A stretch of 36,189 bases of DNA, from positions 1 to 36,189 of IMG/VR virus record IMGVR_UViG_3300025769_000357; one strand, given 5' to 3'. This document shows positions 18,140 through 36,189 of this stretch, piece by piece. Origin of the DNA: a virus. The translations under genes and the position numbers were made by a program. The first letter of the stretch is position 1; each line of letters opens with the position of its first letter. Below the pieces are notes generated by a model that was given only the letters and a program-made list of their open reading frames with translations, was not told the DNA's origin and did not search any database.

Positions 18140-19687
18140 TTATACTTCTAATATAACTTCGGAGTCAAGCCAATTTTTACCTATTTTTAATTCTATTCCT
18201 ATAGGCATGTCATAGAAGACCCCGTATCTTTTTTGTGCTTCTTCATTTATCATTAGCATACAGCTAGATAGCACGTCAACACATTTCTCTTCCTCACCCG
18301 GATAAACATCTAGGACAATAGAATCGTGTACGGTATTACAGATAACTGACTTCATTTCTTGGCGGCGCATTTCCCTATCCAGCAACACCAAGCCCATCGG
18401 AAGAAGGTCAGCCGTGGCAAATCCCTGCACAGGGTAGTTACATATAGCAGTGCGGTCTGTGGCCGTACCCCAATCAGTCCACCTAGCATACGGAAAGGCA
18501 TACTGCCGCCCTGATGGTAACTGGATGTACTTGTGCATTACCGCATGTTTTTGCATACCGTCTTGCCACTCAGCAACCTGTGCATACTTGGTCTTGAAAG
18601 CGTTGTAATATCTTTTCTGGTCATCAGTGCCACTGGTGCCACCGTACAAGGGTTTGAATGTGTGCGCCTTGGCTTCTTGTCTGGTACACCCGATAATACC
18701 TGCGGTGATACTGTGTACGTCTGTGCCTTCCTGCACATCAGACATGACTGTCTCGTCCCCCGCAAGAAAGCCAGCAACCCTGAACTCCAACTGCGAGTAG
18801 TCCCCTTCTAGGATAGACCCGCCCTCGAACCTACTTTCCACGGCACGGCGAATCTCGAACGTGTTACCCCGTGGCATGTTCTGGAAGTTTGGGTTGCGGC
18901 TGGATAGTCGTCCGGTTGCTGTCACACACTGCATAAACTCTGTGTGGATAATACCGTTGGCATCCATGTTGTTTTCCATTCCTTCGAGGAAGGAACCGAC
19001 ATAGGTGCGAACCGCACTGTACCGTATGTACGACTCAGCAAACTCGCGGGCTTCACCTCGTAGGCTAGACAAAACCTGTTCCAAGGTTTCCTTGTCCGTC
19101 TTGAAGCCAGCCGCCGCAGTGCTGTAAACATCACGGGGTATGAGTTTGAAGCCCGCTACCTCACCAGTCGATTCGTAGCGCACTCCCTTGCCACCACAGG
19201 GCTTGCAGATTCTGATAGCCTTACCTAGTGTCCCGTCCTTCTTGCGGGCTGTGTAGCGTCCCTTGCCCCCGCAATCGGTACACTGACTGCCCTTGGTCTT
19301 GTACAGCACGTCTGTCTCGTTGATTACGTACCTGTTGAAGTCTTGACGGGACATGCGGGTTCGCCGCTTGGGCTTCATACCTGCACCCCGCAATTCCATC
19401 CCCAAGTTGAAGATGCTTGCCCAACGGGACTTGTTGCGTACGGCGCAGGAGTAGAACAGCTTGGAGCGGTCATCTGCACTGGCTAGGTTGATAGGGGTAT
19501 CCCCCATTGCGTTCGCGGCGAGTTCGGTTAGCCGCCGCTCTAGGGTGAACAGTTCGGTCTGGTACTGTTCTCTGATTTCGTCTAGGGTTTGTTTATTTAC
19601 TTTGATTCCGTTCTGCTCCATACGGGCAAGAACTTTTGTCATGTCAAGCGACAGACGCAAAGTGGGCAAGAGAGTCCGGTTGTTCAT
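18140..19687 (-). CDS. Family A DNA polymerase, with DnaJ-type zinc finger
   Basis: A 515-aa polymerase without its own exonuclease domain. Residues 1-30 (LLPTLRLSLDMTKVLARMEQ) are the usual entry to the Pol I thumb. A zinc finger, CTDCGGKG at 136-143 and CKPCGGKG at 161-168, is inserted in the thumb region. Motif A DYSQLEF holds Asp296. Motif B R336-x3-K340-x3-F344-x3-Y348 matches E. coli R754/K758/F762/Y766. Motif C VHDS holds Asp455. The ATG at 19687 has GAGGA about seven bases upstream and overlaps the exonuclease gene by 44 bases in another frame. DnaJ-domain-bearing polymerases are a reported trait of HMO-2011-type phages. Confidence 0.93.
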   Translation of the reverse strand: MNNRTLLPTLRLSLDMTKVLARMEQNGIKVNKQTLDEIREQYQTELFTLERRLTELAANAMGDTPINLASADDRSKLFYSCAVRNKSRWASIFNLGMELRGAGMKPKRRTRMSRQDFNRYVINETDVLYKTKGSQCTDCGGKGRYTARKKDGTLGKAIRICKPCGGKGVRYESTGEVAGFKLIPRDVYSTAAAGFKTDKETLEQVLSSLRGEAREFAESYIRYSAVRTYVGSFLEGMENNMDANGIIHTEFMQCVTATGRLSSRNPNFQNMPRGNTFEIRRAVESRFEGGSILEGDYSQLEFRVAGFLAGDETVMSDVQEGTDVHSITAGIIGCTRQEAKAHTFKPLYGGTSGTDDQKRYYNAFKTKYAQVAEWQDGMQKHAVMHKYIQLPSGRQYAFPYARWTDWGTATDRTAICNYPVQGFATADLLPMGLVLLDREMRRQEMKSVICNTVHDSIVLDVYPGEEEKCVDVLSSCMLMINEEAQKRYGVFYDMPIGIELKIGKNWLDSEVILEV

Positions 19688-20231
19688 TGAATAGTTCCTC
19701 AAATGTAGTGCCAAAGGCTTCGAGTTGTGCAAGTGCTACTTGCTCTGTAGATAGTACATCGGCAATGCCGTATTCTTTAATCACATCCCAAGGAATGTCA
19801 TAAAACGTTTTACCTTCCTTGAAATACGGTGTGATAACGTCCTTCTGCTTTTGTACGTCACTATACTTTTCTGCAAGAGAAGCAAGTCCCAGAGGCCATC
19901 TCTGCGACCTCGCCAGTATATATTCCGAAACCATCGTGTCATAGATATGTCCCTCGTATGTAAAGCCACATTCACGTAGCCAGTTTAAGTCAAACTTAAA
20001 GTTTTGTCCAATGATAACGTCAGCGTAGTTGAGTGCCGTTTGCATATCTTGGGCGGCACTGTCCGTGGGTGGCTCAGTGCTGTGGTAGTAGCAGTCGTAG
20101 AATACCCGCTCCTCGTTTAACCACTTGTAACCTATTGAAACCAAAGAGTTTCCAAAGTAAGGCAGGGGTGTTGTCCTACCGTTGGCACGTTCTTTGTGCG
20201 TGGTCTCCACGTCTAGGGTTAGTACGTTCAT
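19644..20231 (-). CDS. 3'-5' exonuclease (proofreading part of split family A polymerase)
   Basis: A 195-aa DnaQ-like exonuclease. Exo I is L-D-V-E-T (Asp7, Glu9), Exo II I-I-G-Q-N-F-K-F-D-L (Asp81) and Exo III Y-G-I-A-D (Tyr154, Asp158). The family A polymerase domain follows in a separate, overlapping frame, so proofreading and synthesis are made as two chains that presumably reassociate. The last 20 residues or so (FEELFNEQPDSLAHFASVA) are read in the frame overlapping the polymerase start. GGGGA precedes the ATG, which overlaps the 49-aa upstream gene by four bases. Confidence 0.92.
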   Translation of the reverse strand: MNVLTLDVETTHKERANGRTTPLPYFGNSLVSIGYKWLNEERVFYDCYYHSTEPPTDSAAQDMQTALNYADVIIGQNFKFDLNWLRECGFTYEGHIYDTMVSEYILARSQRWPLGLASLAEKYSDVQKQKDVITPYFKEGKTFYDIPWDVIKEYGIADVLSTEQVALAQLEAFGTTFEELFNEQPDSLAHFASVA

Positions 20232-25990: not shown

Positions 25991-26677
25991 ATGAAAAAGG
26001 CCGACATAAACAAGCCAGCTTTCACCATGTACCCAAAATCCGTAAAGTTTTTGGATAACTACCCGCACAAGGTATTGAAGCAATCCAAAAACAAAAAGCT
26101 GTCCCGCGATAAATTACCCGTAATAAAAAAGGGCGAGTTTAAGGGCTATGTTATCTATACTTTGACCTTAGAAGAACGCGCCACGTGTCCGCGCGAATGT
26201 TATCACTGGGACGATTGCTACGGGAATAATATGATGTTTGCGCACCGTATAGAACACGGCGCAGAATTAGAACGGCGCATATCATTAGAAGTAAAAGAAT
26301 TGTGTGACACCTACAAGGGCGTCATTATCCGTTTGCATGTATTGGGCGACTTTTATTCTGTGCAATATGTCGAACTGTGGCAGTTATTGCTTGCCCGTTT
26401 TGATAACTTGGCGGTGTGGGGATTCACGGGGCGAACTTATACCAGCGACATAGGGCGGGCTATCAAAGCAGTAAAAGACCTGTTCGGTTCGCGGTTTTCT
26501 GTTCGGTTTAGCAATGCACCTGACATCAAGTTTTCAGCAAATAGCGCAGATTTATATAAACCAGTAAAGGGTGAAAGCGCAGTATGTCCAGAACAAACGG
26601 GGTTATCCGAATCTTGCGCGGATTGTACGTTTTGCTGGGCGGCACCTGATAGGCAAGTTTTGTTTTTGACGCACTAA
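25991..26677 (+). CDS. Cys-rich phage protein, GP88/DUF5131-like
   Basis: A 228-aa protein. Cys clusters are CPRECYHWDDCYGNNM near residues 56-71 and CPEQTGLSESCADCTFCW near 200-217. Between them lie RLHVLGDFYSVQYVELWQLL and WGFTGRTY, then RFSVRFSNAP. The CP..CY..CYG.NM start and IRLHVLGDFYS core match a phage family I associate with gene product 88 / DUF5131, thought to be radical-SAM-like in fold. Two Cys clusters suggest a metal or Fe-S centre. The function of these proteins is unknown. AAGG lies nine bases before the ATG. Confidence 0.6.
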   Translation: MKKADINKPAFTMYPKSVKFLDNYPHKVLKQSKNKKLSRDKLPVIKKGEFKGYVIYTLTLEERATCPRECYHWDDCYGNNMMFAHRIEHGAELERRISLEVKELCDTYKGVIIRLHVLGDFYSVQYVELWQLLLARFDNLAVWGFTGRTYTSDIGRAIKAVKDLFGSRFSVRFSNAPDIKFSANSADLYKPVKGESAVCPEQTGLSESCADCTFCWAAPDRQVLFLTH

Positions 26678-26726
26678 TGACAAATTGACCACGCCAATAA
26701 AAACTTTGGGGCTGTCATGTTACTTT

Positions 26727-26752
26727 CGGGCGGGCTTGTCGGGCGGGCTTGG
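26727..26752 (+). repeat. Tandem 13-bp repeat forming a G-quadruplex motif
   Basis: TCGGGCGGGCTTG occurs twice without a gap (26727-26739, 26740-26752). The four GGG runs are spaced by loops of 1, 6 and 1 bases, which fits the classic G3+N1-7 quadruplex pattern on the plus strand, and a fifth GGG run follows at 26752. Confidence 0.8.
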
Positions 26753-26767
26753 GTGCGGTGGCGGCGG

Positions 26768-26807
26768 GGAATCTTTGCGAGTCGCGGGGCGGGATTCCAT
26801 TTTTTTT
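26768..26807 (+). terminator. Possible terminator
   Basis: GGAATC (26768-26773) pairs with GATTCC (26793-26798) around a GC-rich 19-base loop, followed by A and eight T (26800-26807). The stem is short and the loop long, so efficiency is doubtful, but the T-run after a hairpin 91 bases downstream of the previous gene fits. Confidence 0.45.
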
Positions 26808-26903
26808 GGGGACATTTTTTGCTTGCACTGTTGCCGGGCTTGTGTCTTTAATAATCGGGCGGCGGGTTGCCGCGTAACATTAACAAAGTTAAGGAAAGTA
26901 AAA

Positions 26904-27923
26904 ATGCCGTTAGATATTATAACAAATGATGACCGTGTTGAAATCATGGGTGACCGGATGCAACTTATACATCAGGACATAAACGACATAAGCATATATG
27001 AAAAGTTTGGTGCAATCCGGCGGGTGCCAGTCGAAGCGATAAAACCCTATGAGAATGAACCGACCATATCGGAACCTGTCCCGATGCCAAACTATTCCGC
27101 GTTAATGAACGAAGCCACGGGTGATATTCTGGATACCAGACCCGTAGCAAAAAGCTATAACCTTGTTCCGCATGATGGTTTATTCCAGCAACATGCGGGG
27201 ATGTTAGATGCTGGGGAACTTCCCACCAACAATGTAGAAGTACACGATAGGCTATATGATGGCGGGCTTCGTGCGCACCGTACCATTTACTTTAACGACC
27301 TTGAAAAGCAGATAGGCGATTCAACCGACCTTGTGCGATGCCGCGTCGATGTTTTTAACAGTGTGGATATGTCGTGGGCTTTCCAAGTGTTTAGCGGGGC
27401 GTATCGTGACCTGTGCCGCAATACTCTTGTGTTTGGCGGGCAAAAATCATACCAGCAAAAAGCCAAGCATACCCGCAATCTATCGCCAACCGCTATGCTA
27501 ACCAAGGCCAGCAACGGGCTTGAAATGTGGACTAGCCAAGGCCAGCAGATGCAAAACTGGGCAGGTGCCAAAATGACCCTCGAACAGTTTGGGCAGATAT
27601 TGGGTGAGACCATATGCAAAAAGAATACTCTTGCCAGCAATGCGGGGCAGGGTTCGCAGGTTAATGAAAAGCTTATGAACTATCTTTTGCATAGGTTCCG
27701 CGAAGAACAAAAGGAATTGGGTTCGACCATGTGGGCGGGTTACAATGCTTTGACGCATTGGGCAACCCATACTAACGAACAATGGGAAGGCGATGACGGG
27801 AAGGTACGCCAGTCAGGCACCAAAACAGGTAAAACCCATATGGTTCAACGAAAGCGCAACGATGACGTGCGGGCAATCTTGAATAGTAATTCTTGGAATT
27901 ATCTAGAACAGGTTGCCGCGTAA
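26904..27923 (+). CDS. DUF932 family protein
   Basis: A 339-aa protein. I place the start at ATG 26904, six bases after AAGGAAAG; the frame is open further upstream but across noncoding G-rich DNA. Features of the DUF932 family seen are an S-Y-N-L-V-P-H-D-G-L-F segment near residue 85, D-V-F-N-S-V-D-M-S near 150, and V-F-S-G-A-Y-R-D-L-C-R-N-T-L-V-F-G near 160-176 (the C-R-N-x-L core). The family is common in plasmids and phages of Proteobacteria and its biochemical role is unknown. Codon use is more GC-rich than the small genes upstream. Confidence 0.85.
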   Translation: MPLDIITNDDRVEIMGDRMQLIHQDINDISIYEKFGAIRRVPVEAIKPYENEPTISEPVPMPNYSALMNEATGDILDTRPVAKSYNLVPHDGLFQQHAGMLDAGELPTNNVEVHDRLYDGGLRAHRTIYFNDLEKQIGDSTDLVRCRVDVFNSVDMSWAFQVFSGAYRDLCRNTLVFGGQKSYQQKAKHTRNLSPTAMLTKASNGLEMWTSQGQQMQNWAGAKMTLEQFGQILGETICKKNTLASNAGQGSQVNEKLMNYLLHRFREEQKELGSTMWAGYNALTHWATHTNEQWEGDDGKVRQSGTKTGKTHMVQRKRNDDVRAILNSNSWNYLEQVAA

Positions 27924-27925
27924 AC

Positions 27926-28006
27926 ATGGAAGCACTTTACGTAATTTATCGCACTATGACTGTAGTGTTAATTTGCCTAATTATCTGGGCAGTGTTTATT
28001 CAATAA
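27926..28006 (+). CDS. 26-aa membrane micropeptide
   Basis: An ATG two bases after the DUF932 stop opens a 26-codon frame ending TAA: MEALYVIYRTMTVVLICLII, then WAVFIQ. Residues 11-25 are a single hydrophobic helix. It could be a small membrane-acting peptide. No good ribosome site is seen, so expression would depend on coupling. It may be chance. Confidence 0.35.
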   Translation: MEALYVIYRTMTVVLICLIIWAVFIQ

Positions 28007-28029
28007 CGACATAGGAAAGGAACGAAACC

Positions 28030-28419
28030 ATGTCATTAAATACCAAAGGAATACCAGCCGAACTAGCCGCAGAACTTGCCAACCTTGCCAACCGTATTGA
28101 ATTGGCGGTACGGGCAGATGAACGCCAAAAAGTTGCCAGCAACATTGCCACGGGTGCCGCTACTGGCATGCACGGTGAATCCCTCGAACCCGTCAAGCAA
28201 TCGCGCAAGCTTTGCCGCAAGGAACAGGAACTGATTGTCATGTTAAAGCGCGGGTTTCAAGCCGCACCAACCTTGGCGGGCAACCTTGGCGTGTCGAAGC
28301 AATATGTTTATGCCATGATTCATAACCTCAAGCGCGATGGTATGAATCTGGAAATCCGTAATGTTTCAGGAACGGCGGCACGATACCAAAAGATTTATAG
28401 GCTTGCCAAGACTGGCTGA
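28030..28419 (+). CDS. Helix-turn-helix DNA-binding protein
   Basis: A 129-aa protein. The N-terminal third is helical (LAAELANLANRIELAVRADE). Residues ~68-110 look like a winged helix-turn-helix: LIVMLKRGFQAAPTLAGNLG, then VSKQYVYAMIHNLKRDGMNL, with Ala-x3-Gly-Val-Ser-x-x-x-Val as the HTH core. A transcription regulator of phage genes is likely. AGGAAAGG is well placed before the ATG. A promoter-like TATAAT and an inverted repeat lie just after its stop and could be its own targets. Confidence 0.65.
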   Translation: MSLNTKGIPAELAAELANLANRIELAVRADERQKVASNIATGAATGMHGESLEPVKQSRKLCRKEQELIVMLKRGFQAAPTLAGNLGVSKQYVYAMIHNLKRDGMNLEIRNVSGTAARYQKIYRLAKTG

Positions 28420-28457
28420 CCTGTGCTTATAATGACGGGCGGGCAGGTTTGCCCGTC
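28403..28457 (+). promoter_or_regulatory. Candidate promoter with inverted repeat (operator-like)
   Basis: TTGCCA (28403-28408) and a perfect TATAAT (28428-28433) are 19 bases apart. Directly after the -10 an inverted repeat GACGGGC (28434-28440) and GCCCGTC (28451-28457) brackets the expected start site. GGGCA/TGCCC (28441-28454) is an overlapping alternative hairpin. The layout suits a repressor operator for the gene at 28494, or an attenuator. Confidence 0.45.
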
Positions 28458-28493
28458 CAGTTTAACCAGTTAAGAGAGTAGGAAATAGGAACC

Positions 28494-28760
28494 ATGGATA
28501 TCAATATTTTCGCCCATACCCAAGAAGTACCCAACCGCGCCAAGGTAGGTAATGCCGTAGTGAATGCCAAGCGCACTAAGCATAAAGGCTTTGACGTGTT
28601 CAAGCTTTTTGGCACCAATCAGGATGGCGCACCATTTGAAATCAACATATTTTTGGACAACGGCCAGAAGATTGCCCAATCAATCGAAGTAGCGGGCGAG
28701 TACGGTAAAGCAATCAAAGCGAACCCAGCTAACGGCTATAAGGTTGCAACCACGGGCTAA
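28494..28760 (+). CDS. Hypothetical protein, 88 aa
   Basis: An 88-aa basic protein starting MDINIFAHTQEVPNRAKVGN, with AGGAA upstream. It is beta-rich (GFDVFKLFGTNQDGAPFEIN, IFLDNGQKIAQSI) with no Cys. Last gene before the long control region. Family not recognised; being between a HTH gene and a terminator it may be a separately controlled early product. Confidence 0.6.
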   Translation: MDINIFAHTQEVPNRAKVGNAVVNAKRTKHKGFDVFKLFGTNQDGAPFEINIFLDNGQKIAQSIEVAGEYGKAIKANPANGYKVATTG

Positions 28761-28772
28761 CCAGCCGCGAAC

Positions 28773-28851
28773 AGGTACCCTTTCCCGCTGGGGTTTATCG
28801 GCGGGTTACCTCCCTTAACTTGCCCCCGTCCATTGTGGCGGGGGTCTTTTT
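28773..28851 (+). terminator. Hairpin plus Rho-independent terminator
   Basis: A first hairpin pairs CCCGC (28784-28788) with GCGGG (28801-28805), and AGGT (28773-28776) with ACCT (28808-28811). A second, stronger one pairs CCCCCG (28823-28828) with CGGGGG (28839-28844), extended inside by CCA/TGG, followed by TCTTTTT (28845-28851). It ends the rightward early block. Confidence 0.85.
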
Positions 28852-29204
28852 ATGTGCAACCCGTTAATATTCCGCGCGGGTTGCTGTTATTGCTGGGCTT
28901 TTTGTCTTTTGGGTGTGGTGCGTGATGCTATGAATATGTAAACCGACAGGCCGCCCCCCAAGTTTTCACCTCATCAAAACCATGACAAATAGGTTACGCG
29001 CGGGTGCGCGGGCGGGTGTGTCTATGGGTTCGGGTGCTTGTTGCTGGGGTTTGGGTGTCCGTTTGGGGTGCGTGACGTTTCGGCGAGGTGACAAAAAAGA
29101 TAAATATTTGGCTCGTGCGCGGGTACGCGAGGGACACCCCACCCCCCCGGCATTTGCTATGCAATCTCGACATCATTTTTGTATTTTCAGGTTATCGATA
29201 TGGG

Positions 29205-29229
29205 TTTCCCGCGAACCCGTAGTGTACCC
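29205..29229 (+). repeat. 25-bp direct repeat, copy 1
   Basis: A perfect 25-base repeat containing TTTCCCGCGAACCCGTAG, present again at 29281-29305 (76 bases start to start). Nineteen of 20 bases of TTCCCGCGAACCCGTAGTGT recur inside the RNR gene at 12802-12821. Confidence 0.95.
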
Positions 29230-29280
29230 CGACGCTCCTTACTAGGAGATTTACGGAAATTATTCGGGGCCTACAAAGGA

Positions 29281-29305
29281 TTTCCCGCGAACCCGTAGTG
29301 TACCC
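29281..29305 (+). repeat. 25-bp direct repeat, copy 2
   Basis: Identical to 29205-29229. A short inverted repeat CTCCT-TACT-AGGAG (29235-29248) lies between the two copies. Confidence 0.95.
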
Positions 29306-29365
29306 GGTGTGTATGGGGGTATATCCCGGCGGGCTTAGGCCCATTGTACAGTCGAATTTCGCATT

Positions 29366-29418
29366 TGTCAACCCTTTTTATTTTTTTTGTTGACACAAAG
29401 GTTAAATACCCTTAAAAT
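29366..29418 (+). promoter_or_regulatory. Strong sigma70-type promoter for packaging and head genes
   Basis: TTGACA (29390-29395) and TAAAAT (29413-29418) are exactly 17 bases apart. An eight-T tract precedes it. TGTCAAC (29366-29372) and GTTGACA (29389-29395) form a perfect inverted repeat that overlaps the -35 and encloses the T-rich tract, so a repressor could cover the promoter. The first gene starts 26 bases after the -10. Confidence 0.85.
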
Positions 29419-29444
29419 AGAGGGAAGTACGGAGGGAAACCTGC

Positions 29445-29639
29445 ATGTTCGCGGCGTTGATACTGATATGTTCGATAGGTCCTGCGCCAAATTGTGTGGA
29501 AGCCCACGATACCCGTGGTCCATACCGCACAGAAGAGGCGTGTGAGGCCCGTGTGGGCGAAATGATACGCGATGTAGCCTTCTTTGTACCCCCACCCTAC
29601 GAAATTATGTACAAGTGTAAGCAAGTGACAGGTATCTGA
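29445..29639 (+). CDS. Small Cys-containing protein, possibly exported
   Basis: A 64-aa protein. It begins with a short hydrophobic segment (MFAALILICSIGPAPNCVEA, residues 1-20) that may be a signal or membrane anchor, followed by a soluble part with two more Cys (EEACEARVGE; MYKCKQVTG). GGAGG lies nine bases before the ATG. Similar short proteins with a hydrophobic start and scattered Cys occur near terminase genes of marine phages. An envelope role is possible. Confidence 0.55.
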   Translation: MFAALILICSIGPAPNCVEAHDTRGPYRTEEACEARVGEMIRDVAFFVPPPYEIMYKCKQVTGI

Positions 29640-29640
29640 G

Positions 29641-30045
29641 ATGAATCTTCTTCCTCAAACCCCCAATCGCAAGCCCGCCCTAACCGAAAAACAGGAATCC
29701 TTCTTGGAAGTCCTGTTCGAGAACGGTGGGAATGTCCACGCAGCAGCCGAATCAGCCGGATACTCCCAGAGTTCCGTGTCGTGGCTGCGCGAACGCCTTG
29801 CTGATGAGATTGTAGAACGCACCAAAATCATGTTGGCGGGACAGTCCCTAAAGGCCGCGAACAAGTTGGTGAACCTGATAGACACTCCCGCCATCGAACG
29901 CGGTGATGACCTGCGTATGAAGGCCGCTGAAGCCATCTTGAACCGTGTCGGGCTAGGTAAACAGGAAACAGTCAATCACAACGTACAGGCAGTCCACGGT
30001 GTCGTCCTGTTACCCCCGAAAAAAGAAGTAGTCATTGATGGGTAA
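29641..30045 (+). CDS. Putative terminase small subunit
   Basis: A 134-aa protein one base after the previous stop. The N-terminal part is a helix-turn-helix (LTEKQESFLEVLFENGGNVH, then AAAESAGYSQSSVSWLRERL), as in terminase small subunits that recognise the packaging site. The middle is helical (LRMKAAEAILNRVGLGKQE), the usual linker and oligomer region. It lies directly before the large subunit and overlaps it by eight bases. Together these give a confident though not certain call. Confidence 0.8.
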   Translation: MNLLPQTPNRKPALTEKQESFLEVLFENGGNVHAAAESAGYSQSSVSWLRERLADEIVERTKIMLAGQSLKAANKLVNLIDTPAIERGDDLRMKAAEAILNRVGLGKQETVNHNVQAVHGVVLLPPKKEVVIDG

Positions 30046-31771
30046 ACCCCGCAAACGTGTCCTTGTCCCGCCCGACCCCGCGACATTGGACAAACCCCGT
30101 GGACCGGGGCGACCCAAGAAAGACCCGAACCAACCCAAGGCTCAGTACAAGATTTCTGACAGGGAACGTGCGCGTCGTTCTGTGCAAGCCAAGTTGCGTA
30201 ATGCAAAAAAGGCCGCTGCCAGTCAAGAAATAAAGACCCAGACAAAAAAGAAGAAGGTCAAAAGGCTAAAAGAGTCTGCAAAGAAAATCGAAGCAGCCCT
30301 CAAGGGAAACAAGACACGGGTTGTTGACCAAGGTGACCTAGAGCATCTGCCCGGAGCCGTGGAAGATTTGGTGGATGGCTCTCCTGTCATCTTCAAGCCC
30401 AACCCCGGTCCCCAAGAAGACTTCCTTTCTGCCAGTGAGCAGGATGTCCTGTATGGCGGCGCAGCAGGGGGAGGAAAAAGTTTTGCCTTGCTTGCTGACC
30501 CACTTCGGTATTGCCACAACGCCAATCACCGTGGCCTTCTTCTAAGACGCACACTCGACGAACTAACCGAACTCATCGACAAGTCCAAGCAGCTATACCC
30601 CAAGGCGTTTCCCGGAGCAATCTTCCGCGAGGCAAAGTCCACTTGGGTGTTCCCGTCTGGGGCAACACTCTGGTTCACGTACTTGGACAGGGACAAAGAT
30701 GTCACTCGTTTCCAAGGACAGGCGTTCAACTGGATTGGCGTAGATGAAATAACCCAGTACCCCACACCTTATGTATGGGACTATCTGCGTTCTCGCTTGC
30801 GTTCCACAGACCCCGAACTCCAACAGAACTTGACCATGCGCTGCACAGCTAACCCCGGTGGTGTTGGCGGCTGGTGGGTCAAGAAAATGTACATCGATGC
30901 CCACGAACCCAATATGGCGTTCGGTGCAAAGGACCTAGAAACAGGAAAAACTTTTGTGTGGCCAGACGGTCACAAGAAGGCAGGTCAGCCGTTGTTCTAC
31001 CGCAAGTTCGTTCCTGCGCGGTTGACTGATAACCCCTTCCTGATGGCAGATGGCCAATATGAGGCCATGCTTCGGTCACTCCCGGAAGTCGAGCGTAGAC
31101 GACTATTAGAAGGGGACTGGGATGTAGCGGAGGGAGCCGCCTTCCCGGAGTTTTCACGGGTGCGTCATGTGGTGGAACCTTGGGACTTGCCAACCAACTG
31201 GCCCCGCATACGTGCAGCCGACTACGGCTACTCTAGCCCCTCTTGTGTCCTGTGGGGTGCAATCGATTGGGACAACAATATCTGGGTCTATAGAGAATTG
31301 TACGTAAAACACTTGACAGCGGAACAATTAGCTGATAAAATATTAGAATGTGAGGAGTTGGACCCACAACCACATTACACAGTCCTTGACTCCTCATGCT
31401 GGAATAAAACCGGATTCGGTCCGTCCATAGCAGAAACTATGATGCGGGCTGGTGTTAGGTGGACTCCCTCAGACCGCAACCGTCTTCAAGGAAAAATGGA
31501 ATTACACAGGCGGCTTGCTGACGACCCCTACTCTAACGAACCACGAATGCGGATTTTTTCTAATTGTAAGCATATAATCGCACAGCTATCGGGCATTCCA
31601 CTCTCCAAAACAAACAGTGAAGATGTAGACACCAGAGCAGAGGACCATGCCTACGATGCGTTGCGTTATATGGTTATGACGCGAACCAGCGGATATACTT
31701 CTATACATAAACAGTTGCAAGGTATCAAAGACCAAGCCTTCCAACCTTTTGACCAGACCTTTGGATACTGA
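30038..31771 (+). CDS. terL: Terminase large subunit
   Basis: A 577-aa packaging motor. Start is the ATG at 30038; a TTG three bases earlier is in frame. Walker A is G-G-A-A-G-G-G-K-S at 140-148, Walker B N-W-I-G-V-D-E-I at 231-238 with catalytic Glu237. The RNase-H-type nuclease has Asp395 (AADYGYSSP), Asp451 (VLDSS) and D537/D540 (EDHAYDALRYM). An unusual first 115 residues are very basic, with an AT-hook-like GPGRPKKDP at 22-30 and a Lys-rich coiled region. It pumps DNA into proheads through the portal and cuts it. Confidence 0.96.
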   Translation: MGKPRKRVLVPPDPATLDKPRGPGRPKKDPNQPKAQYKISDRERARRSVQAKLRNAKKAAASQEIKTQTKKKKVKRLKESAKKIEAALKGNKTRVVDQGDLEHLPGAVEDLVDGSPVIFKPNPGPQEDFLSASEQDVLYGGAAGGGKSFALLADPLRYCHNANHRGLLLRRTLDELTELIDKSKQLYPKAFPGAIFREAKSTWVFPSGATLWFTYLDRDKDVTRFQGQAFNWIGVDEITQYPTPYVWDYLRSRLRSTDPELQQNLTMRCTANPGGVGGWWVKKMYIDAHEPNMAFGAKDLETGKTFVWPDGHKKAGQPLFYRKFVPARLTDNPFLMADGQYEAMLRSLPEVERRRLLEGDWDVAEGAAFPEFSRVRHVVEPWDLPTNWPRIRAADYGYSSPSCVLWGAIDWDNNIWVYRELYVKHLTAEQLADKILECEELDPQPHYTVLDSSCWNKTGFGPSIAETMMRAGVRWTPSDRNRLQGKMELHRRLADDPYSNEPRMRIFSNCKHIIAQLSGIPLSKTNSEDVDTRAEDHAYDALRYMVMTRTSGYTSIHKQLQGIKDQAFQPFDQTFGY

Positions 31772-33366
31772 TGGCAGAACTCGACCCTAAAACCGCAACT
31801 CTCCGTGAGGTTGCCCAAGCCTACGCCAAGAAGTCTGGGCGTGAAAAAACCTTTATGGGTCCGGCTTTGCAATTCTTCAAGGACATTGCAGACGAACCCG
31901 GTTCGGCGTTGCGGTTGTTTGAGAAGGATGCCGAAGGAAACACTCTTCTTTCCAAAACGTTTAAGGGTAGCGAAGACTCTTCTACAGTCAAGACAGCTAT
32001 GCAAAACCTTCGCCAAGTCGGTTTGACACTGAAAGAATCTGTAGGTCCTGATACACCAGAGTACAAACTGCTTCCGGACAAAGCACCCAATACCGATTTA
32101 AACAACCGTATTTTTGGACGCAGCGAACCTGCCAAGGCTCTATCTGAGGTTGCTATCAACCCTGACAAAGCAAAAATGAGCCAGTTGTTTGCAGGGGTGG
32201 CAAAATACCTAGACGACCCTAAAACACGTTCTACTGCACAAGCCATTATTTTTAATCTCAATACGGGTCTCCGTCCCAATGCTGCCGCTGGCTTACAGGT
32301 ATCTGCCTATAAGCCCGATAGTGGCGCAATATACATCGAAGCTGAAACCAAAGGTGCCAAAGGTCGCGCCGTTAATATTCCCTTGAACCCTATTGCAGAT
32401 AGTATCCTACAGGAAAACCTAGCTGCGGGCAATAAAGAAAATTTCTTTGTCAAGCCAAACGGCAAGGTTGTCACATCTGCAGACATGACAGATTTGCTAA
32501 AAGATGTCAAGGTAAAAGATATAGCCTTCGACGCATCTACAGGCAGATATTTTGACACCCTAGCACCTGCAGGATTTAAAGGTAAAAAGGGTTCGTCCCT
32601 GTTGCGTAACATCCATGCTACTGTGGGACAGTCAATCGGCGTAGACCAAGACCGACTCGCTTATCTGCAGGGTCGTAGTTTGAAGTCGGCGGGTAAGAGC
32701 AGCACAGGCGAACTAACAACCTATCAGCAAGCCTATCCGGGTGCTGTTGGTGAGGTGGACCGCCAGAACGCTAACATGTTTGCTACCTTCTGGGGTGAGG
32801 CCGCTGAAGAAGCCGGATTTAAAATCACATCCAAGATTCCAATGCCAGAAACCCGTATCACAACCCAAACCGCTGGTTACGAGGGCTATTTCGACCTTCC
32901 GGTCCGCGAAGAAGTGCCGACCACAGCTAAACCCACTGTGGCCTCTCCCGCTGAAGTAAATCCCGCTGCACTAGAAGAAATGAAAGCCAAGGGATTTGAT
33001 ATGGATAAGTTTTTAGAAGGGGCAAAAGAAGCGTTTGGTAAACTGCCCGGCCCCGTTAAAAAGTCCCTTGGCCCTATAAGTATAGGTTTAACTGCAGCTA
33101 CTGCTGCCTCTACAGTTTCTGAAGTAGAAGCCGCAACAGGCTCTTCTACTCTTGCTGCTGTTGCTGGCGCATCAGAGTTTGGCCCTATAGGATATAGTGA
33201 TGTTCGAGATATTGCTGCTGGACGGTCAGAACCAGACCAGTTCGGTACCACACCAGCTAGTCGTATAGCTGCCGAAGAAAAGGCGGGCTTTATTGATTTA
33301 GGACGCAACAGGGAACCTGAAGCCAACCCTGCCGCTAATCAAGGCTTCATCCAATCACAACCCTAA
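31771..33366 (+). CDS. Protein with degenerate tyrosine-recombinase domain
   Basis: A 531-aa protein whose residues ~1-330 follow a tyrosine recombinase: helical N-terminal part (LREVAQAYAKKSG), then F-N-L-N-T-G-L-R-P (Arg168, box I), K194/K197 in the hairpin, S-S-L-L-R-N-I-H-A-T (Arg279, box II) and Y-L-Q-G-R (R302 where GH is usual), then TTYQQAY (Tyr318 or Tyr322). The box II His is replaced by Ser276 and the second His by Arg302. Residues 380-531 are an extra Pro/Ala/Gly-rich tail with a small-residue segment near 435-470. Sitting between terminase and portal, it may be a virion or packaging protein rather than an integrase. Confidence 0.65.
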   Translation: MAELDPKTATLREVAQAYAKKSGREKTFMGPALQFFKDIADEPGSALRLFEKDAEGNTLLSKTFKGSEDSSTVKTAMQNLRQVGLTLKESVGPDTPEYKLLPDKAPNTDLNNRIFGRSEPAKALSEVAINPDKAKMSQLFAGVAKYLDDPKTRSTAQAIIFNLNTGLRPNAAAGLQVSAYKPDSGAIYIEAETKGAKGRAVNIPLNPIADSILQENLAAGNKENFFVKPNGKVVTSADMTDLLKDVKVKDIAFDASTGRYFDTLAPAGFKGKKGSSLLRNIHATVGQSIGVDQDRLAYLQGRSLKSAGKSSTGELTTYQQAYPGAVGEVDRQNANMFATFWGEAAEEAGFKITSKIPMPETRITTQTAGYEGYFDLPVREEVPTTAKPTVASPAEVNPAALEEMKAKGFDMDKFLEGAKEAFGKLPGPVKKSLGPISIGLTAATAASTVSEVEAATGSSTLAAVAGASEFGPIGYSDVRDIAAGRSEPDQFGTTPASRIAAEEKAGFIDLGRNREPEANPAANQGFIQSQP

Positions 33367-33381
33367 TCTGGGAGAAAAAAG

Positions 33382-33600
33382 ATGCCAGACAATAATTACA
33401 ATTATGGCGCATCGTACATCATGGCCTCATGCACAACTTCTGTGGATGACCAAATGGGTGCGGACAAGCTATATCGTGAAGGTCTTGAGTTCGATACTCG
33501 CGCCAAGACTGATGTCTTGACAGAAGATATGCCAAAGAAACAGACGAAAACGACTGTGGATGCTTCTGTTATGCGTATGGCCGAAGAACGCGATTACTAA
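33382..33600 (+). CDS. Hypothetical protein between recombinase-like gene and portal
   Basis: A 72-aa polar protein starting MPDNNYNYGASYIMASCTTS and continuing with charged helices (VDASVMRMAEERDY at the end). GGGAG sits about nine bases before the ATG. It has no hydrophobic stretch and no recognisable family. Its location and size suggest a minor virion or assembly protein. Confidence 0.6.
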   Translation: MPDNNYNYGASYIMASCTTSVDDQMGADKLYREGLEFDTRAKTDVLTEDMPKKQTKTTVDASVMRMAEERDY

Positions 33601-33606
33601 AATCAG

Positions 33607-35721
33607 ATGTCAGAAGATAACTTTCTCCAACCGGAAGACGACACCACTGTCGGCGTGATGAACCCCGAAGAGCAGATGCCCGGACTTGCTGCCTATGTTA
33701 AAGGCAAGTTCGACGATGCTGAAAACGGACGATACGCGCACGAGCAGCGGTGGCTACAAGCCTACAAAAACTTTCGCGGTATCTACGATTCTACCACACA
33801 GTATCGTGACTCCGAAAAGTCCAAGGTGTTCATCCGGATTACAAAAACCAAGGTGCTTGCAGCTTTTGGTCAGATTGTGGACATTCTGTTCGCAAACAAG
33901 AAGTTTCCCCTAGTTGTGGAATCCACTCCCGTACCCGAAGGTATCGCGGAGTTTGCCCACATGGAAACACCCTTGGACCAAGCCGCCCCGCAGGAAGACC
34001 CCTACGGGTTTGCCGGGGATGGACGGGAACTTGCTCCCGGAGCCACCGAAGCCAAGGCTTTCTTGGGCGGTCTCGAAAACGAGTTGGGTTCGTTGCCCCT
34101 CGCAGAAGGTCCGGCACGTATGGGCGAACCACAAATTAGCCCTGCACAAGAAGCAGCCCTTCGTATGGAGAAAACTATCCACGACCAACTGCTAGATACC
34201 AATGCAGTCAACGTACTTCGTAACTCTGTGTTCGAGTCGTGCTTGCTAGGTACTGGTGTAGTCAAAGGCCCGTTCAACTTCTACAAGCGTGTCCACAACT
34301 GGGAACGCAACGAAGAGGGCGAACGTGAATACTTACCAACTGAAAAAACCGTTCCACGGATTGAAATGGTCTCTGTGTGGGATTTCCACCCTGACCCCTC
34401 TGCTACTAGCATCGACGACTGCGAATATGTTATTCAACGTCACCGCATGAATCGCCAACAGCTTCGCGCACTTATCAAGCGTCCGTACTTCAATGCGGAA
34501 GCAATTCAAGAGTGCTTGGCTAAAGGCCCGAACTACGAAGATAAATACTACGAAGACACCATTCGTGAGGATGAGACTGAGCCGTACTATCAGGGTAACC
34601 GCTACGAGGTTCTTGAGTATTGGGGTGTTCTCGATTCTGAACTGGCTAAAGAAGCCGGACTCGAAGGCGCAGAACAAATGTCTGAGTTCGACGAGGTTCA
34701 GGTTAACGTGTGGGTGTGTGGCACTATGGTTATACGCTGTGTGTTGAACCCCTTCACACCAGCCCGTATTCCTTACCAGATGTTCCCGTACGAGGTCAAC
34801 CCCTATCAGCCGTGGGGTGTTGGCGTAGCTGAGAACATGGAAGACGCCCAGAAGCTTATGAACGGTCACGTTCGTATGGCTATCGACAACCTAGCCCTAG
34901 CTGGTAACCTCGTCTTTGACGTGGACGAAGCAAGTTTGGTTCCCGGTCAAAACATGGACATCTTTCCCGGAAAGATTTTCCGTCGTCAGTCGGGTGTGAC
35001 AGGAACAGCCATCAACGGTCTCAAGTTCCCGAACACAGCAGGTGAAAACTTGCAGATGTACCAGATTAGTCGGCAGCTTGCTGACGAAGAAACGGGCATT
35101 CCGTCCATCATACACGGACAGACAGGCGTTAGTGGCACAGGACGTACCGCTGCAGGTCTTTCGATGCTGATGGGTTCTGCGGGTTTGTCTATGAAGACAG
35201 TTATCAAGAACGTGGATGACATGCTCTTAAAGCCGCTAGGTGAAGCTTACTTCCAGTGGAACATGCAGTTCAACGAAGAAGCAGAAGACATCAAGGGCGA
35301 CCTAGAAATCAAACCACGTGGCGTAGCCGCAGTTATGCAAAAAGAAGTTCGTACACAGCGTCTGACTTCCCTACTGCAAACGGTATCTAACCCTATGCTG
35401 GCTCCGTTTATCAAGATACCGAACCTGATGCGCGAACTGGCGATATCACAGGACATCGACCCTGATAGCCTAGTGAACGATGCCAACGAAGCGCAACTCT
35501 ACGCAAAGATGTTACAAGGAATGATGGCCAATGTACAACAAGGAACAGGCGAAGATGCTGGGGCCGCTGCTGGCCCAGCCGGAGATATGGGCGGGGTTGG
35601 AGGAGTATCTCCTAACCCAGAAGGAACAGACGTTCAAGGCTCTGGTAACGGCACAATCGGAGTCGGAACTGCGCCAAATGCAGGGGAAAGCGGCTTTACT
35701 GGAAACGCTCCTCAAACTTAA
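33607..35721 (+). CDS. Portal (head-tail connector) protein
   Basis: A 704-aa portal. Its N-terminal half has RYAHEQRWLQAYKNFRGIYD and KVFIRITKTKVLAAFGQIVD segments. The central part has VSVWDFHPDPSATSIDDCEY and FTPARIPYQMFPYEVNPYQP, with WGVGVAENMEDAQKLMNGHV (helix of the wing/clip region). DEETGIPSIIHGQTG and RTAAGLSMLMGSAG are portal helices of podoviruses. The C-terminal ~65 residues are low-complexity Gly/Ala/Pro-rich and overlap another gene in a different frame. It forms the ring through which the terminase threads DNA. Confidence 0.9.
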   Translation: MSEDNFLQPEDDTTVGVMNPEEQMPGLAAYVKGKFDDAENGRYAHEQRWLQAYKNFRGIYDSTTQYRDSEKSKVFIRITKTKVLAAFGQIVDILFANKKFPLVVESTPVPEGIAEFAHMETPLDQAAPQEDPYGFAGDGRELAPGATEAKAFLGGLENELGSLPLAEGPARMGEPQISPAQEAALRMEKTIHDQLLDTNAVNVLRNSVFESCLLGTGVVKGPFNFYKRVHNWERNEEGEREYLPTEKTVPRIEMVSVWDFHPDPSATSIDDCEYVIQRHRMNRQQLRALIKRPYFNAEAIQECLAKGPNYEDKYYEDTIREDETEPYYQGNRYEVLEYWGVLDSELAKEAGLEGAEQMSEFDEVQVNVWVCGTMVIRCVLNPFTPARIPYQMFPYEVNPYQPWGVGVAENMEDAQKLMNGHVRMAIDNLALAGNLVFDVDEASLVPGQNMDIFPGKIFRRQSGVTGTAINGLKFPNTAGENLQMYQISRQLADEETGIPSIIHGQTGVSGTGRTAAGLSMLMGSAGLSMKTVIKNVDDMLLKPLGEAYFQWNMQFNEEAEDIKGDLEIKPRGVAAVMQKEVRTQRLTSLLQTVSNPMLAPFIKIPNLMRELAISQDIDPDSLVNDANEAQLYAKMLQGMMANVQQGTGEDAGAAAGPAGDMGGVGGVSPNPEGTDVQGSGNGTIGVGTAPNAGESGFTGNAPQT

Positions 35722-35755
35722 ACAAAATCACGAGGCAATAGTTAAGAATGGTTGA
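35531..35755 (+). CDS. Helical virion-module protein overprinted on the portal 3' end
   Basis: A 74-aa protein in the frame +1 to the portal, with 191 of its bases shared with the portal end and eight with the next gene. It is well-formed and helical (LLAQPEIWAGLEEYLLTQKE, then QTFKALVTAQSESELRQMQG, then KAALLETLLKLK), a pattern I know from small proteins following portal genes in other tailed phages. In the overlapping portal frame the same bases give Gly/Ala-rich low-complexity sequence, as expected if the portal tail is the unconstrained partner. AAGGA is 11 bases before the ATG. Confidence 0.65.
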   Translation: MYNKEQAKMLGPLLAQPEIWAGLEEYLLTQKEQTFKALVTAQSESELRQMQGKAALLETLLKLKQNHEAIVKNG

Positions 35756-36189
35756 CCGCATTGACATAGGAATGGATGATGATACAGATGGGACAGAGAC
35801 ACCCTCGTTCTTTCAAAGTCAGCGCGTCATCTCCCCTACGGAGTACGGAAGCAGCTTTGTCAACTTCTATAACACGTCTTTGGGTCTTCCTACTTTGGAA
35901 GAGGAAACAGGCATTGAAGTTGAAACGCCCGAAGTAGAGTTGGCCACCCCCACAGTACGAGATACAACAACGGGCGGTGACGACTTCCAACCTAACATCC
36001 TAGAACAGACTGCGTTCGGTACGGGCGACCCTATGAATGAAGTCGTGTTCGGTACGGGTACAGGAAACTTCGACAGCTACTCTGACTACCTGATGAGTGG
36101 GACCGACGGTAAGTTTAGCGACAGGGTTCCACTGGTGCAAAATGTTATACAGCCAATAGCCGAAGGTAGATACAGCGACATTAAGTTTG
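35748..36189 (+). CDS. Putative virion or scaffold-region protein, 3' end cut by window edge
   Basis: An ATG at 35748 opens a frame that stays open to the window end (147 residues). It begins MVDRIDIGMDDDTDGTETPS and is acidic with low-complexity Thr/Gly/Glu segments (LEEETGIEVETPEVELATPT) and two FGTG repeats (AFGTGDPMNEVVFGTGTGNF). This composition fits a scaffold or a head-associated protein after the portal, but length and family cannot be judged. It overlaps the previous gene by eight bases. Confidence 0.6.
   Translation, partial: MVDRIDIGMDDDTDGTETPSFFQSQRVISPTEYGSSFVNFYNTSLGLPTLEEETGIEVETPEVELATPTVRDTTTGGDDFQPNILEQTAFGTGDPMNEVVFGTGTGNFDSYSDYLMSGTDGKFSDRVPLVQNVIQPIAEGRYSDIKF

Follow-up and report, generated by a model that had tools for sequence, protein, structure and literature searches.

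The window, that is, the whole stretch of DNA that was analysed, was IMG/VR record IMGVR_UViG_3300025769_000357 (36,189 nt, positions 1–36,189), a viral sequence in which a gene for a protein with a predicted tyrosine-recombinase fold was located between the genes for the terminase large subunit (TerL) and the portal protein. All evidence was computational and was drawn mostly from uncultured contigs. The gene, referred to here as the slot gene, was an open reading frame (ORF) on the plus strand (31771..33366), which started with ATG and encoded 531 amino acids (aa), as an earlier reading of the sequence alone (the sequence-only reading) had described. Its start codon overlapped the stop codon of terL (30035..31771, plus strand) by one base (TGATG). 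On the 3' side, a 15-base gap was followed by a small conserved ORF of 72 aa (33382..33600, plus strand), also found in relatives, and by the portal gene (33607..35721, plus strand). The location in the packaging/head operon, between terL and portal and not in a lysogeny module, was as first described, and the proposed one-base overlaps held at the terL junction but not on the portal side. The slot gene was composed of a conserved core (residues 1–375; 31771..32895, plus strand), containing an N-terminal helical part and the catalytic domain, and a hypervariable C-terminal tail (residues 376–531; 32896..33363, plus strand), which ended with NQGFIQSQP. A tail of ~150 residues had already been recognized.

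The slot protein of the window matched Pfam PF00589 (Phage_integrase) with an E-value of 0.011, which fell short of the cut-off, while a relative reached it. Matches to PHROG integrases had E-values of 5e-5 and 1e-4. When 12 catalytic segments were compared with 11 true recombinases by hhalign, the probability was 93% and the E-value 2.8e-7, and residues R168, K194, R279, and R302 were paired with Arg I, the catalytic lysine, Arg II, and the third-box His, respectively. The AlphaFold model had a mean pLDDT of 58, with values of 80–88 in the best core parts and below 50 in the region of Tyr318. Its best structure match was the archaeal XerA (Z 14.7), the core of lambda Int was matched with a Z of 11.7, and all of the 50 structure matches listed were recombinases or type IB topoisomerases, SSV1 Int among them. 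The best viral structure matches, obtained with Foldseek, were integrases and a nudivirus VLF-1. The N-terminal ~350 residues of the slot protein are thereby shown by computation, on a predicted model, to have a tyrosine-recombinase fold. The domain proposed in the sequence-only reading was supported beyond chance by the hhalign, XerA, and PHROG results, and the structural match was strong rather than missing. A profile search of PDB sequences gave a signal (XerH, E 0.9) that was too weak to use. No relatives of the window slot protein or of the allele of L098, a near-identical phage described below, were found among cultured phages by tblastn, and none were found in bacterial species genomes with slot-protein patterns.

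The residues named in the sequence-only reading, Arg168 in TGLRP, Lys194/197, Arg279 111 residues later, and Tyr318/322, were all located at their positions, and both catalytic His positions were changed (Ser276, and Arg302 at +23). In 38 window-type sequences, residues R168, G195, K197, R199, R279, and R302 were invariant, and K194 was present in 37. Position 276, the first His of the HxxR box, varied among Ala, Gln, Pro, and Ser, and the third box contained the invariant Arg302 in place of His or Trp. Because the first His and the third-box His are lacking in the window type, the protein is not filed as an integrase, although its fold is that of a known superfamily. Residue Y318 was the conserved tyrosine of the window type, missing only in L025 (deletion) and in L055 (contig ends before Y318), and residue Y322 was mostly Phe. 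Residues R168, K197, R279, R302, and Y318 held down to 43% identity, while K194 was replaced by Gln or Ala. Of the pairs Lys194/197 and Tyr318/322, K197 and Y318 were the conserved members, and the arginines and the tyrosine were retained across relatives instead of varying freely. The tyrosine of the window type was offset from Arg II by +39, compared with +31/+32 in known tyrosine recombinases. The ratio of nonsynonymous to synonymous substitution rates (dN/dS) of the core was 0.03–0.05 for most pairs, with a maximum of 0.08, and that of TerL was 0.04–0.09. By this measure, the core is under strong purifying selection and is as constrained as the terminase within its type. In contrast to the core, which was 79–88% identical to that of the window, the C-terminal ~150 residues showed 27–45% identity. 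Some relatives carried an added module at the N-terminus, which ranged from 26 to about 146 residues and belonged to more than one type. In L007 (6901–7315), L011 (3303–3741), and L059 (upstream of 8001), the extra in-frame module was ~140 residues long, and at least two types without relationship to each other were represented.

The window gene is a member of a HYPERDIVERSE family in one slot, composed of tyrosine recombinases between terL and portal in one HMO-2011-type clade. A TerL profile search added 80 viral loci, and most members of the TerL clade of the window contained a single long ORF (about 300–1050 aa) after terL, in many cases with no pairwise similarity to the slot gene of the window. 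When slot proteins were scanned singly, 16 of 45 matched Pfam Phage_integrase (best 5e-23) and 18 of 45 matched a PHROG integrase. An iterated profile, seeded only with the 11 true recombinases and run on a pool of slot proteins and 575 decoys, which comprised other ORFs along with reversed and with shuffled sequences, recovered 46 slot-type proteins and none of the decoys; the profile E-values refer to this small curated pool, and decoy and tyrosine counts are quoted instead. Among 151 loci, of which many were near-duplicates, the profile identified 108 recombinase slots, 22 empty slots, and 12 long ORFs without signal, the last of which were left unassigned. With near-duplicates removed, the respective numbers were 46, 18, and 11. 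On the TerL tree, the recombinase slot was confined to one clade of 62 rows (SH-aLRT 98), with several losses or changes.

A set of predicted active-site residues was kept in this family. Arg I and Arg II were present in all slot proteins that could be aligned at those positions, including those below 30% identity. The complete set R-K-H-R-H-Y was found in the slot proteins of L128, L137, L140, and L141, whereas that of L142 had R-K-E-R-H-Y and the window type R-K-x-R-R-Y, and His occupied the third-box position in several slot proteins outside the window type. In answer to the check proposed in the sequence-only reading, R-K-R-Y was kept and the His pair always lost in the subfamily of the window. 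In the automatic family alignment, the lysine of the window was shifted by one column and its tyrosine lay beyond the matched part. A tyrosine was located 30–41 residues past Arg II in every slot protein of sufficient length. Among representatives below 35% identity, it was present in 22 of 22, whereas equally long control stretches had one in 3–11 of 22, and the probability of a chance origin was about 3e-13. In an alignment of 12 members, built without active-site information (core identity 17–84%, median 26%), nine columns were invariant, and five of these were R168, K197, R279, R302, and Y318. Computation on these sequences thus shows that a predicted catalytic set of two arginines, a lysine, a third-box Arg or His, and a tyrosine is kept in members that share less than 30% identity. 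Such a pattern would not arise from decay or free reuse. The slot proteins of L137, L140, L141, and L128 were ~970–1050 aa long, and their complete-site recombinase near the N-terminus was followed by a long C-terminal region without an assigned domain.

The description of the domain as degenerate, in the sense of catalytically dead, was not supported, since the arginines and the nucleophile persist even between extremely divergent members, and recombinases that lack the first His are known to be active. The archaeal integrases of the SSV1 and pNOB8 types have the active sites R..KxxR..Y and R..YxxR..Y, respectively, without the first His (PMC8371274), and Cre H289A still recombines with lower efficiency (PMC4381057). 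The regular integrases of HMO-2011 (L064, 5377–6255) and CRP-3 (L065, 448–1521) also lacked the first His, with Met and Arg at that position, respectively, and CRP-3 is reported to integrate into its host (PMC6918029). Activity can thus be retained when the first His is lost.

When the window was compared with the near-identical phage L098, the left flank was 99.0% identical over 1989 bases up to 31775, four bases past the terL stop codon, and the right flank, which included the portal gene, was 99.4% identical over 2371 bases from 33303 onward, inside the last codons of the slot gene. Between these exchange flanks, the slot product of L098 was 28% identical to that of the window and shared its terminal residues (NREPEANPAANQGFIQSQP). 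The model of the L098 allele nevertheless matched XerA with a Z of 15.4 and a root-mean-square deviation of 2.8 over 171 residues. In further pairs with 95–99% identical TerL, the slot proteins could not be aligned. The slot gene was cleanly lacking in L157, the flanks of which were 94–98% identical to those of the carriers L137, L140, and L141. Within the protein, L006 and L014 were 99% identical in the core and 39% in the tail, whereas L006 and L090 were 64% identical in the core and 77% in the tail. These comparisons show, at the sequence level, that near-identical phages exchange the cassette as a unit, that it is an accessory gene which may be missing, and that tail and core are exchanged separately. 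The sequence-only reading had missed that the slot gene belongs, as a single allele, to a hyperdiverse family of exchangeable cassettes.

The fixed position at the terL stop codon, together with replacement and with presence or absence of the cassette, would also be expected of a mobile, selfish gene whose own recombinase inserts it behind terL. Site-specific insertion of this kind was rejected, as flanking direct repeats were not found in 24 loci apart from one 12-mer, and L098 rejoined the window within the last codons of the slot gene, as homologous exchange predicts. A selfish cassette is thus very improbable. As an insertion event is not marked by direct repeats, the simplest explanation is that the cassette moves by homologous exchange via its flanks.

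Wholesale swapping would also fit immunity types, and the slot protein might then be a recombinase-fold DNA-binding repressor or superinfection-immunity protein like MrpR of SPbeta, with the swap changing the immunity type. MrpR has the fold without the activity (PMC10516654), and SroF, the repressor of phi3T, was among the structure matches of the L098 allele. The slot proteins resemble MrpR and SroF of SPbeta-type phages as phage proteins with a recombinase fold. However, MrpR has lost its catalytic arginines along with recombinase activity, whereas the slot proteins keep both arginines wherever they can be aligned, and the tyrosine in all representatives. The position in a packaging operon is also unsuited to a repressor, which we consider improbable.

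By homology of its TerL and portal, and by its DNA polymerase with DnaJ-like motifs, the window phage is assigned to the HMO-2011-type marine phages. TerL and portal were 47–59% and 45–54% identical, respectively, to those of HMO-2011-type phages (HMO-2011, CRP roseophages, and HTVC115P). The polymerase ORF (18140–19732) contained two CXXCXGXG motifs, which fits the group, as its hallmark is a DNA polymerase with a partial DnaJ domain (PMC9038755). Contents of the terL–portal interval differed among cultured relatives. The interval was empty in HMO-2011, and it contained small ORFs in HTVC115P, HTVC033P, and HTVC103P, phoH with small ORFs and an SGNH hydrolase in phiM6, an 850-aa protein with small ORFs in RHph_N3_19, and a 220-aa protein in MW202701 (L045, 3589–4248). 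These differences mark the interval as a variable slot. The C-terminal end of the 220-aa protein resembled an HNH-type nuclease motif when judged by eye.

The absence of the gene from close relatives, or its replacement by a very different version, makes an essential packaging role unlikely on the available sequences. The same observation bears on the earlier proposal of a structural or packaging factor that has the recombinase fold but no catalytic activity. The position between terL and portal and the exchangeable tail would agree with such a factor, and a precedent is known in VLF-1 of baculoviruses and nudiviruses, a tyrosine-recombinase-fold protein tied to the capsid and to genome processing (PMC11654684, PMC3649998), which was also among the Foldseek matches. 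The virion role is a demonstrated one for VLF-1 and a proposed one for the slot protein, and the viruses are unrelated. Packaging does not need a gene that close relatives lack or carry in a very different form, and the catalytic tyrosine and arginines are kept at very low identity. A non-catalytic factor is therefore distinctly unlikely.

HMO-2011-type phages, a group regarded as largely lytic, dominate in the ocean, and identifiable lysogeny genes are reported to be absent from most of the subgroups (IV–X) (PMC9038755), the window being assigned to the group and not to a subgroup. Other phages of this type have a real integrase, and that of CRP-3 is used for integration (PMC6918029, PMC9038755). 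The slot gene might accordingly be read as a lysogeny integrase in an unusual place, the phages being temperate and the cassette swap changing the integration site. The complete active site of some slot proteins agrees with this reading, and no other integrase turned up in the long contigs. However, the coupled start suggests expression with the late genes, and the cassette flanks leave no room for attP and are without flanking repeats. The window contained no tRNA, and no tRNA-like match was found in 26000–36189. No HTH_3 (repressor) match above the cut-off was found in eight long contigs. Among 84,980 species genomes, the closest TerL matches were 47–58% identical and were on metagenome-assembled contigs, with no close prophage in named isolates. 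All of these negatives come from incomplete contigs of phages whose hosts are unknown. A lysogeny function appears unlikely on this evidence. The integrases of HMO-2011, CRP-3, and CRP-603 share the phage group and the superfamily with the slot protein, and those of HMO-2011 and CRP-3 share the lack of the first His. Unlike the slot gene, they are located upstream of the replication module (PMC9038755), keep the third-box His, and gave no tblastn match to the window protein. Recent descent from the HMO-2011 integrase was rejected for lack of tblastn similarity, with a deep common ancestry still possible.

Other features of the window were located outside the slot. A putative terminase small subunit gene (29641..30045, plus strand) was located upstream of terL, in a position that matches the annotated small terminase genes of cultured relatives. 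Upstream of this gene, the repeats noted earlier near 29205/29281 were found as 28-nt direct repeats (29202–29229 and 29278–29305) with 96% identity. No evidence was found that they are a substrate of the slot recombinase, and a role as a family-wide recombination site was rejected, as exact copies were found only in the phage of the window and one imperfect copy each was found in four other records (three contigs). An intergenic segment (28777–28860, plus strand) resembled the alphaproteobacterial small RNA (sRNA) mmgR/suhB (RF00519) with 33.7 bits (gathering threshold 41) and an E-value of 6e-4; it is possibly a phage-borne sRNA and a hint of an alphaproteobacterial host. The polymerase region consisted of two overlapping ORFs on the minus strand (18140–19732 and 19644–20231; 530 and 195 aa), compared with a single 680-aa ORF in HMO-2011, and the difference could stem from a frameshift or from an assembly error, or the gene could be genuinely split.

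The slot protein shares the fold, Arg I, Arg II, a lysine, and a C-terminal tyrosine with tyrosine recombinases such as lambda Int, XerC/XerD, and XerA (PF00589). It differs from them in the window type by the missing first His, the third-box Arg, the distant tyrosine, the long exchangeable tail, and the packaging-operon gene. The archaeal SSV1- and pNOB8-type integrases are similar in the active site, and SSV1 Int in structure, but they act in integration, without a packaging context. A recombinase outside reported lysogeny is also represented by gp143 of phiCbK, a tyrosine recombinase of a phage without reported temperate behaviour, for which multimer resolution was proposed (PMC3556154). 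Unlike the slot protein, gp143 is a catalytic core of 208 aa in a replication context, with no tail and no allele swapping reported. Another recombinase precedent without a lysogeny role is Cre of phage P1. The internal head proteins of T-even phages (IPI and kin), a highly diverse set with only a capsid-targeting sequence in common (PMC3012670), provide an analogy only, as they are unrelated to the slot family.

Our preferred reading, held tentatively and at somewhat less than an even chance, is that the slot gene is an allele of a hyperdiverse accessory cassette encoding a catalytically competent recombinase that is produced late and has its role in packaging or in the virion. The enzyme would cleave and rejoin DNA strands, with a site specificity that may differ between alleles. 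Because the start overlaps terL and the portal gene follows, it would be expressed late with the packaging proteins and would act at that stage. It may be linked to assembly by its tail and perhaps carried in the virion, and its substrates could be the ends of phage DNA, genomes in circular or multimeric form, or DNA in the newly infected cell. A gene that is replaced outright between 99%-identical phages and yet shows terminase-like constraint within its type resembles systems in which specificity is selected by variable partners, which here may be hosts, rival phages, or target sites.

Several observations weigh against a competent late recombinase. In L025 (1881–3446), Tyr318 and its helix were missing through an in-frame deletion of 21 residues, the remainder of the core being intact. 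Residue K194, paired by hhalign with the catalytic lysine, was lost in the deepest members, and it was K197, three residues on, that was invariant. The window type has Arg in place of the third-box His, and we know of no tested precedent for this replacement. No target site was found for the slot recombinase. The GF(L/I) motif at the tail end was modestly enriched (25 of 44), partly through relatedness, and was not used as proof of virion targeting.

According to a 2024 paper, no tyrosine recombinase had been linked to packaging or to the formation of virions except in baculo-like viruses (PMC11654684), and no description of a recombinase in the terL–portal slot was found in the open-licence papers searched. 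The slot family makes that statement directly testable. The more specific proposal that this large clade packages an allele-swapped, hyperdiverse recombinase in its virions, and that the enzyme, once ejected, targets specific sites in the DNA of the phage, a rival, or the host, is doubtful; if true, it would be the first virion or packaging role of the superfamily outside baculo-like viruses. The family is, in addition, a rich natural source of divergent recombinases with varied active sites. A recombinase that has a fixed place in a packaging operon, is swapped where the background is 99% identical, and retains its nucleophile below 30% identity implies that variability in DNA-site specificity is strongly selected, probably at a late stage of infection.

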